Source of the DNA: Candidatus Nitrosopumilus sp.
Lineage (GTDB): Archaea > Thermoproteota > Nitrososphaeria > Nitrososphaerales > Nitrosopumilaceae
NCBI GenBank assembly: GCA_021268355.1
Contig: JAJETY010000001.1
Location: 1-64,000, forward strand
DNA: 64,000 bases
Direction: 5' to 3'
The position numbers were made by a program, and so were the translations under genes. The notes below the pieces were generated by a model that was not told where the DNA came from, made no database searches, and saw only the letters and a program-made list of their open reading frames with translations. Shown piece after piece: positions 58,313 to 60,247 of this stretch. The number at the start of each line of letters is the position of its first letter. Position 1 is the first letter of the stretch.

Positions 58313-58996
58313 TTAATGGCAAGATGCACAATTGCATTCTTCGCCACAATTACAAACCCCATCTTCAGAACATGTACATCCTTCAGAATCTGCTTCACAT
58401 GCCATTCCGTGATCACCGTCGCCACAAGAACATCCTTCACCACAAGAACAGGTTCCATCTTCTGAACAATCACAGCCCATTCCGTGTTTCATATCACCAC
58501 AGAAACATCCATGCATTCCATCTCCGCAATTACATCCGTCTGGACCGCAGGAACATCCATGATGATATTGATCACCCATCATTTTGGACATGTGTTTCAT
58601 ATGATCTTTGAGACTCATAGATTGTATCATTTCATACATCCTATCAAACATCTTCATCATGTGAGATTTTTCTGAATCAGTCATTGAATCCCATGCAGAA
58701 ACTAATTGCATTCTGTGAAGATCAAATAACATCTCCATTTTGGCCATAGCCATATGAGAACTTACAGATGAATCACTTAGTGCAGGTAAGGATTTTCGTT
58801 CTCCTGTAGAAGTGAAGTCTTCAGGAGTACATAGTCTATCTCCACAAACTTTGTCTTTAGTAGCCATTCCATATTTCATACTTTTTGTGCCTTTAGCTTT
58901 TACAGCATCAGCAGACTCTATGAAATCGATTTGAGCAACAATTGCCATTGATAAAACAATAGCAACTAAGAACAAAGCAGAGTATCCATTTTTCAT
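58313..58996 (-). CDS. Secreted His/Met/Cys-rich metallothionein-like protein
   Basis: The 227-aa protein has a signal peptide (~1-30), a CGDRLC pair, a central His/Met-rich helical region (residues ~80-145: DLHRMQLVSAWDSM, HMMKMFDRMYEM, HMKHMSKMMGDQYHH) and a C-terminal ~80 residues with about 20 Cys in CxC pairs (GCSCG, GCNCG, GCFCG, GCDCS, TCSCG, ECNCASCH). Clusters of CxC with Gly and Asp are metallothionein-like; His/Met are typical copper ligands. It is exported, so it may buffer or scavenge copper at the cell surface. No known family is recognised as a whole. ATG at 58996; its transcript appears to stand alone. Confidence 0.75.
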   Translation of the reverse strand: MKNGYSALFLVAIVLSMAIVAQIDFIESADAVKAKGTKSMKYGMATKDKVCGDRLCTPEDFTSTGERKSLPALSDSSVSSHMAMAKMEMLFDLHRMQLVSAWDSMTDSEKSHMMKMFDRMYEMIQSMSLKDHMKHMSKMMGDQYHHGCSCGPDGCNCGDGMHGCFCGDMKHGMGCDCSEDGTCSCGEGCSCGDGDHGMACEADSEGCTCSEDGVCNCGEECNCASCH

Positions 58997-59148: not shown

Positions 59149-59259
59149 TTGGATACAGTTCCAAATCACACCCTTATAGGAGAAAGTAAGGAAGAAATAA
59201 CAATATTAGAAGAAAAGATCAAGAGGGTAGAGGAACTAATTCAGGAAATCAATGATTAA
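59149..59259 (+). CDS. Possible acidic coiled-coil microprotein
   Basis: A 36-aa product with TTG start: DTVPNHTLIGESKEEITILE, then EKIKRVEELIQEIND. The heptad-like helix supports coding; no family. Confidence 0.4.
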   Translation: MDTVPNHTLIGESKEEITILEEKIKRVEELIQEIND

Positions 59260-59306: not shown

Positions 59307-59501
59307 ATGGAAAATCCTACTGAGATAAATTCAGTTTATTGGGATGAAGGAACAAAATCATGGCAATACAAAGTTGTTCCAGTTGAAGAATATCACGGAT
59401 TTACTGAATGTCAACATTGCAGGAGACCGATGTCTCATAACATAAAGAGTGAAGGTGAGTTCAAAGTAGTTTATGTCAAATGTGCATGCACGAGAAAATA
59501 G
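59307..59501 (+). CDS. Small zinc-ribbon protein
   Basis: A 64-aa protein: VYWDEGTKSWQYKVVPVEEY, FTECQHCRRPMSHNIK, YVKCACTRK. CxxC and CxC pairs form a ribbon. ATG at 59307. It ends where the convergent microgene (stop at 59502) begins. Confidence 0.7.
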   Translation: MENPTEINSVYWDEGTKSWQYKVVPVEEYHGFTECQHCRRPMSHNIKSEGEFKVVYVKCACTRK

Positions 59502-59579
59502 TTATTTTGTATAAGACATGTAGATTAAAACTCCGGACAAAATAACAATCAAAATTGCAGGAGGCATCCAAGATTTCAT
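59502..59579 (-). CDS. Single-helix membrane microprotein coupled to the nuclease gene
   Basis: A 25-aa product, MKSWMPPAILIVILSGVLIY then MSYTK. Its ATG overlaps the TGA of the upstream nuclease gene as ATGA, strong evidence for translational coupling and for the gene being real. Confidence 0.55.
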   Translation of the reverse strand: MKSWMPPAILIVILSGVLIYMSYTK

Positions 59580-60247
59580 GTATTTACCTCAGTGTTAAGA
59601 TAGTATTGTTCTAAGCGTTCGAATAAGGGTTCAACATAATCATCACATGTTTTTACAAATTCTTGACGAGTATTTTTTTCACTGCTAACAAGTATGACTA
59701 CTTGGTTAATTTTTTGTCCAGTAACCTCCTGAAACATTTGGGCATAGCAAGTTGTCTGCAAGTAATATTCATACATATATTCATCAACTTGAGGTTTTCG
59801 TTTTGTTTTATAATCAATTATTGATAATTCGCCATTATATTTTGCGATAAGATCACTAGTCCCAGCTACTTTCAGTTTATCAGAATACATTCGTTGTTCG
59901 ATACATGTGACATCATCAATATTTTCTAGATATGGTTTTAGATTATTAAAATGAGCAATAGGAAGTAAATCAAATTCTTGTAAATTTAATTTATTTGTCA
60001 AATAGTCTTCTATAATTTGATGTGATTGAGTTCCAATATGCTGAGATTGTGCTGTAATATATTGATGGGCAGGTTCATTTTCTTTCCATAATGCCAAACC
60101 ACTCTTCTTTTCATCAGGAGCAGTTGCAGAAAGAATTGTGTTTATTGAAGGATATATTTTATCAAATTTTGTTTGATACCAATGTCCATCTTCCCTGTCA
60201 AGTAGAGTTGGTTCTCTAATTTTCAACATATTAGAAAAATTAGGCAT
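59576..60247 (-). CDS. PD-(D/E)XK nuclease, MGME1/exonuclease-like
   Basis: The 223-aa protein has IYPSINTILSATAPDEKKSG, GTQSHQIIEDYL, and the catalytic core KVAGTSDLIAKYNGELSIID then YKTKRKPQ (D..D-x-K arrangement: Asp in TSDL, IDYK). Downstream YYLQTTCYAQMFQEVTG is typical of RecB/MGME1-like single-strand DNA exonucleases. It probably acts in repair or DNA end processing. It is followed by a coupled membrane microgene. Confidence 0.82.
   Translation of the reverse strand: MPNFSNMLKIREPTLLDREDGHWYQTKFDKIYPSINTILSATAPDEKKSGLALWKENEPAHQYITAQSQHIGTQSHQIIEDYLTNKLNLQEFDLLPIAHFNNLKPYLENIDDVTCIEQRMYSDKLKVAGTSDLIAKYNGELSIIDYKTKRKPQVDEYMYEYYLQTTCYAQMFQEVTGQKINQVVILVSSEKNTRQEFVKTCDDYVEPLFERLEQYYLNTEVNT

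Follow-up and report, generated by a model that had tools for sequence, protein, structure and literature searches.

The fungal copper thioneins are eukaryotic metallothioneins built from repeats, while the prokaryotic SmtA/BmtA and MymT are small, cytoplasmic proteins. In the metallothioneins of Oikopleura, metal capacity is set by the number of repeats, which differs between populations (PMC8283569). Among ammonia-oxidising archaea (AOA), which depend on copper, Nitrososphaera viennensis upregulates the Cys-rich protein Csp when Cu is limited, and a promoter motif of its copper-limitation response has been described (PMC7785015). AOA have been reported to lack known Cu efflux genes yet withstand higher Cu than AOB do, and copper-replete N. 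maritimus reportedly releases weak, unidentified Cu ligands (PMC9723733). A search of the open-access literature found no description in ammonia-oxidising archaea of a protein such as the one presented here.

This protein is encoded on the minus strand of the window, the 64,000-nucleotide stretch of Candidatus Nitrosopumilus sp. DNA that was analysed (contig JAJETY010000001.1, positions 1 to 64,000). The open reading frame is complete, with an ATG start, and no other in-frame ATG lies between the upstream stop and the start codon. The product contains 22 Cys, 24 Met and 11 His, has a mass of ~21 kDa without its signal, and is Cys-rich in its last 81 residues only (Table 1). Judging from the sequence, we think it somewhat probable that it is an exported cell-surface metal buffer which would act like a copper metallothionein, with Cu(I) as the most likely metal.

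Table 1. Coordinates of the gene and of the parts of its product within the window.
Feature	Position	Strand	Description or basis
Whole gene	58313..58996	(-)	227 aa, metallothionein-like, presumed exported; stop codon 58313-58315
Hydrophobic presumed export signal, residues 1-31, ends ADA	58904..58996	(-)	Sequence; ADA followed by (V/A)K kept across relatives; helix 5-22 in model
VCGDRLC segment, residues 50-56	58829..58849	(-)	Recurs near N-terminus of many exported Nitrosopumilaceae proteins
Met/His-rich three-helix domain, residues 80-139	58580..58759	(-)	Predicted structure; 8/13 invariant columns Met or His
Cys-rich tail, residues 147-227	58316..58558	(-)	20 Cys, nine CxC, no CC
C-terminal cap CTCSEDGVCNCGEECNCASCH, residues 207-227	58316..58378	(-)	Most conserved portion of tail among relatives

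The first-pass annotation had described a signal peptide followed by two ligand-rich regions, one rich in His and Met and the other holding about 20 Cys in CxC pairs within the last ~80 residues. Both regions were borne out, with 16 Met and 7 His among the 70 residues from 77 to 146 and with 20 Cys and nine CxC in the 81-residue tail. A signal peptide is likewise plausible, in that the hydrophobic start of the window protein and the ADA-VK junction that ends it are kept across relatives. As this junction is conserved across many related N-termini, we read it as a putative signal-peptidase site and the N-terminus as a probable export signal.

Some 20 residues past the presumed ADA cleavage site, the segment VCGD(R/K)LC opens many otherwise unrelated exported proteins of the Nitrosopumilaceae (L003-L030, L057-L091), and looks like a common sorting or attachment element. 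Its carriers include multicopper-oxidase-like proteins (our reading of L088-L091), metallo-beta-lactamase and DUF1264 proteins, and proteins with a repeated domain of ~105 aa for which no Pfam family was found above cutoff. In other Nitrosopumilus species, large exported proteins of roughly 390-810 aa alternate this ~105-aa domain with CxC modules, with 35-73 Cys in all (L032:160-2163, L036:628-3066, L031:682-2262, L033:679-2262 and L038:835-2013). The presence of VCGDRLC at the N-terminus of multicopper-oxidase-like proteins in related genomes would fit a chaperone that hands copper to enzymes at the surface, for instance ammonia monooxygenase or multicopper oxidases. We nevertheless regard a chaperone as most improbable: the CGD(R/K)LC coding pattern occurs in the window genome only once, at 58829-58849, the gene is absent from most genomes of the genus, and a stoichiometric chaperone would not need 20-44 Cys.

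Helices were predicted by AlphaFold at residues 80-103, 107-126 and 129-139 of the full-length model, and the helical domain folded alone reached a mean pLDDT of 87. The confidence of the full-length model was too low for a fold search, and a search of the PDB with the model of the helical domain returned no match. Met and His occupy 8 of the 13 invariant positions of the domain, more than their share of all residues would give (p = 0.014, Fisher test), which lends modest support to a possible ligand role, the sequences being few and related. In other Nitrosopumilaceae proteins the same domain, at 30-35% identity, is also found N-terminal to a DUF1264 domain (E 2e-17) or to a metallo-beta-lactamase domain (E 2.5e-11).

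The tail carries its 20 Cys in 81 residues without a single CC pair, and contains one aromatic residue (Phe), one Lys and no Arg, with a pI of 4.05. When the tail was shuffled with its composition preserved, 0.03% of the shuffles had at least nine CxC and were also free of CC (p = 0.0003), and every other ATG-initiated ORF of at least 60 aa in the window has three CxC at most. The model shows no structure for the tail (pLDDT mostly 33-52), and the window copy has no DNA-level repeat array there. Metallothioneins as a class are rich in Cys (about 20-30%), which they arrange in CxC motifs, and have few or no aromatics in the Cys domain; the tail shows both features, its single Phe comparing with zero aromatics in the complete tails of two orthologs (G078 and G074). 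The class is also marked by low mass and a Cys domain alone, from which the 227-aa protein departs. So many sulfur residues, 46 of the 227 when the 24 Met and the 22 Cys are added up, could also belong to a sacrificial antioxidant, whose surface Met and Cys would scavenge peroxide and nitric-oxide-derived oxidants, and AOA genomes have been reported to lack catalase (PMC9723733). Such a role seems very unlikely, however, for a protein whose CxC spacing, His and conserved Met/His positions it would all leave unneeded, and beside whose gene no adjoining recycling reductase gene was seen.

The homologue search in Nitrosopumilaceae that had been suggested for this protein found orthologs, all in Nitrosopumilus genomes. 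At least seven genomes of the genus other than the window's have the gene, six of them at the same syntenic site and with the same gene order around it (G078, G085, G075, G020, G074 and G063). A profile built from residues 1-146, run against 95 genus and 250 family genomes, scored 267-300 bits in seven Nitrosopumilus genomes including the window's and at most 118 bits in all else. An eighth genome (G075) has the tail only, at a contig end adjoining the conserved flank. The gene is accessory, being present in 8 of the 95 genus genomes searched when this partial copy is counted. The N-terminal and helical profile gives a better count of the gene than a profile of the CxC tail, which missed the true orthologs in G074 and G063 and whose tally of 10 of 95 is a lower bound that mixes two protein types. 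Named relatives are the Gulf of Mexico MAGs GoM_MAG4 and GoM_MAG5, the isolate PfA and 21_Oct_SF_Bin27, and the close ones among them, being Nitrosopumilus MAGs, agree with a Nitrosopumilus host; a more distant copy (G105, 60% identity in the conserved part) lies on a short contig without flanks.

Across the N-terminal 143 codons, dN/dS values of 0.12-0.34 indicate purifying selection. Together with the orthologs, the synteny and the shuffles, these values led us to reject chance or artefact as an explanation for the gene. A viral or phage origin was also rejected, as phage records gave no match and viral contigs no confirmed one, and so was a wider spread through the phylum, since the 398 genomes searched yielded same-genus matches and, besides these, a single weak one that is broken by two internal stops and was taken as chance. 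Two related genomes (G064 and G034) have both flanking genes but no gene between them, the distance being about 310 bp in the first and 43 bp in the second. These two group together beside G085 on the flanking-gene tree, which is unrooted and of modest support, so that the gene may either have been gained inside the genus or have been lost repeatedly.

The tail itself varies greatly between species. Complete CxC tails hold 12 (G085), 16 (G105), 20 (window), 24 (G074) and 44 (G078) Cys. In the longest of these, from a single-contig genome, a 27-bp unit (GCNCGDGQH) is repeated without error to 8.7 copies, and in the tail of G074 (GoM_MAG5) a different 27-bp unit (GCSCGDGEH) is present in 4.7 copies that are likewise perfect; the repeats read GCSCGEGEH in G105 and GCSCGHDET in G075, and the G020 tail has an assembly gap inside its repeats. 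The perfect 27-bp repeats are lineage-specific, and one CxC and one His are gained with each unit. All CxC tails end in a similar cap, CTCSEDG(V/I)CNC...C(N/T)C(A/T)(S/T)CH, and Cys, His and Met together make up 31-35% of every complete one, whatever its length. The G063 genome, which looks like that of the cultured model N. maritimus SCM1, encodes an ortholog (G063:C1, about 789747-790391, minus strand) with the conserved two thirds and then a His-rich tail of 8 Cys and 11 His. The first-pass annotation had made its reading depend on whether the Cys pattern is conserved. Orthologs do share this pattern, along with the C-terminal cap, though not strictly, most Cys having been swapped for His in G063. 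Because of that swap, the constraint looks to be on a metal-ligand-rich tail rather than on a CxC tail or any one sequence.

Variation in length is also common in the repeats of surface proteins, and a presumably exported protein with such a tail might instead be structural or adhesive, its Cys forming disulfides that cross-link the envelope. In exported proteins of larger size, like modules do alternate with the repeated domain of ~105 aa, and two relatives match collagen-like adhesins through Gly-rich repeats, weakly and far below cutoff. All complete CxC tails have even numbers of Cys, which would suit disulfides but does not discriminate, as it follows from the CxC units. We consider this explanation quite unlikely in view of the arrangement of the tail: the two Cys of a CxC do not readily form a disulfide with one another, and the motif is the metallothionein signature; the tail has no predicted regular fold; and His is added with each repeat. 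The exchange of Cys for His in G063, moreover, preserves metal ligands and not disulfides.

A surface metal buffer, by comparison, is suggested by syntenic orthologs under purifying selection, by the over-representation of Met and His at invariant positions of the helical domain, by a tail whose Cys number varies as each perfect 27-bp repeat adds a CxC and a His, and by the replacement of Cys with His in the G063 ortholog. Its likeness to a copper metallothionein is argued by the dense CxC without CC, the few aromatics and the near absence of basic residues in the tail. Copper would also fit a genome in which no HMA domain was found, against 14 of 14 control genomes that have one, and the reports that AOA tolerate Cu without known efflux genes and that N. 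maritimus releases Cu ligands (PMC9723733). Counting against a buffer, oxic seawater would be expected to oxidise exposed thiols that are not already loaded with metal.

No feature of the sequence singles out copper; it is established for metallothioneins that CxC tails bind many soft metals, Zn, Cd and Hg among them. Since the metal cannot be read from the sequence by itself, the strongest rival is a metallothionein-like surface sponge that would detoxify Zn, Cd, Hg or Ag, outside copper handling. The accessory distribution of the gene would suit such a sponge, as would the His present in every repeat unit and dominant in the G063 tail. We nonetheless judge it unlikely. Met-rich helices should be better suited to Cu(I) than to either Zn or Cd, the use of copper by marine ammonia oxidisers is exceptional, and Lys beside Cys is almost absent, in contrast to typical Zn/Cd thioneins.

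If the protein is a copper buffer, its N-terminal signal would export it, and the thioether and imidazole ligands of the Met/His helices could make the first capture of Cu(I) or Cu(II). The CxC tail, disordered when empty, would then wrap around Cu(I) and hold it in thiolate clusters. The variation observed between species may mean that capacity is tuned through gain or loss of CxC repeats or through the swap of Cys for His, an idea that draws on the scaling of capacity with repeat number in Oikopleura metallothioneins (PMC8283569). The surface would in this way be protected from excess copper and/or provided with a reserve close to the copper enzymes of ammonia oxidation; of the two, protection is slightly favoured, given the accessory nature of the gene. 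Its absence from most Nitrosopumilus genomes means that copper handling does not depend on it.

A broader proposal is possible, though we hold it as doubtful: that these proteins constitute an archaeal family of their own, dedicated to a metallothionein role at the surface, with a helical Met/His receiver domain that would pass copper on to a CxC store, the capacity of which differs between species through tandem-repeat expansion and Cys-to-His replacement, and that the family belongs to the copper-ligand and copper-tolerance system of marine AOA. With 8-44 Cys in the tail, the family offers a concrete, testable candidate for AOA copper ligands or tolerance. An ortholog apparently exists in the cultured model N. 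maritimus, and the natural tail-length variants provide material for examining how the number of repeats determines capacity.

The surroundings of the gene were also surveyed. None of the flanking genes tested has a metal-related family, and a metal operon by neighbourhood was rejected on this basis. A small divergent ORF of about 36 aa with a TTG start in the window (59149-59259 (+)) adjoins the gene in relatives too, and its counterpart in L002 reads MDTVPNHTLIGENEEELMRLEEKIKMIEEFIQEINE. Between the gene and this ORF, four relatives (L054, L053, L094 and L055) have a palindrome, CCCAAATTTGGG / CCCAAATATGGG, roughly 100-150 bp before the ATG; it is nearly unique in their genomes, cannot be recognised in the window and is a possible operator. 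The palindrome CCCAAATWTGGG was rejected as regulatory evidence: it lies upstream in four relatives and is unrecognisable in the window, and its sole further copy in six genomes has an unrelated context. At 59307-59501 (+) is a 64-aa protein with CQHC and CAC motifs, present in 68 of the 95 genus genomes at 60-94% identity and without a Pfam family above cutoff. The locus is flanked at 59576-60247 (-) by a PD-(D/E)XK nuclease family protein (PF12705, E 4e-10) with about 90% identity among the gene-bearing species.

It had been suggested that the protein belongs to no standard family, and indeed no match above threshold was obtained in Pfam, NCBIfam or the PDB; isolated tails likewise gave none to Pfam or NCBIfam metallothioneins. 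The best match to any metallothionein model was that of the relative L034 to PF01439 (E 0.027), at 15.8 bits against a cutoff of 23. The protein may thus be metallothionein-like in action while standing outside the known metallothionein families. It shares with SmtA/BmtA (PF02069) and MymT its prokaryotic origin, its richness in Cys and, by prediction, metal binding, and has no match to PF02069. Like the Csp of N. viennensis (NVIE_028200, PMC7785015), it combines a helical domain with many Cys in an ammonia-oxidising archaeon. The Cys of Csp, however, line the interior of a four-helix bundle, whereas the window protein has three predicted helices and no Cys in residues 77-146, and identity with Csp was rejected for this lack of helical Cys. 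PF03860, used as a stand-in for Csp, had no match in the 95 Nitrosopumilus genomes, a weak negative given the short model.

The short helical domain and its W..(L/M)T..E motif recall DUF3106 and Spy-like helical metal-stress proteins. DUF3106 gave weak matches in 6 of 13 members (best E 9e-4), all below the Pfam cutoff of 24.3 bits, with 20.0 bits for L003 as the best and 11.1 bits for the window protein. The CxC-module exported proteins of five other genomes (G012, G016, G096, G108 and G109) share the VCGDRLC start and have closely similar CxC modules (e.g., CNCSEDGTCSCGAGC), but their modules alternate with the ~105-aa repeated domain and they lack the Met/His helices. With repeat-built metallothioneins such as Oikopleura OdiMT2 (PMC8283569), the window protein has in common a CxC-rich, aromatic-poor Cys domain and a capacity apparently altered through the number of tandem units. 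It differs from them in its presumed export, in the acidity of a tail almost free of Lys and Arg, and in the fusion of that tail behind VCGDRLC and the Met/His helices.
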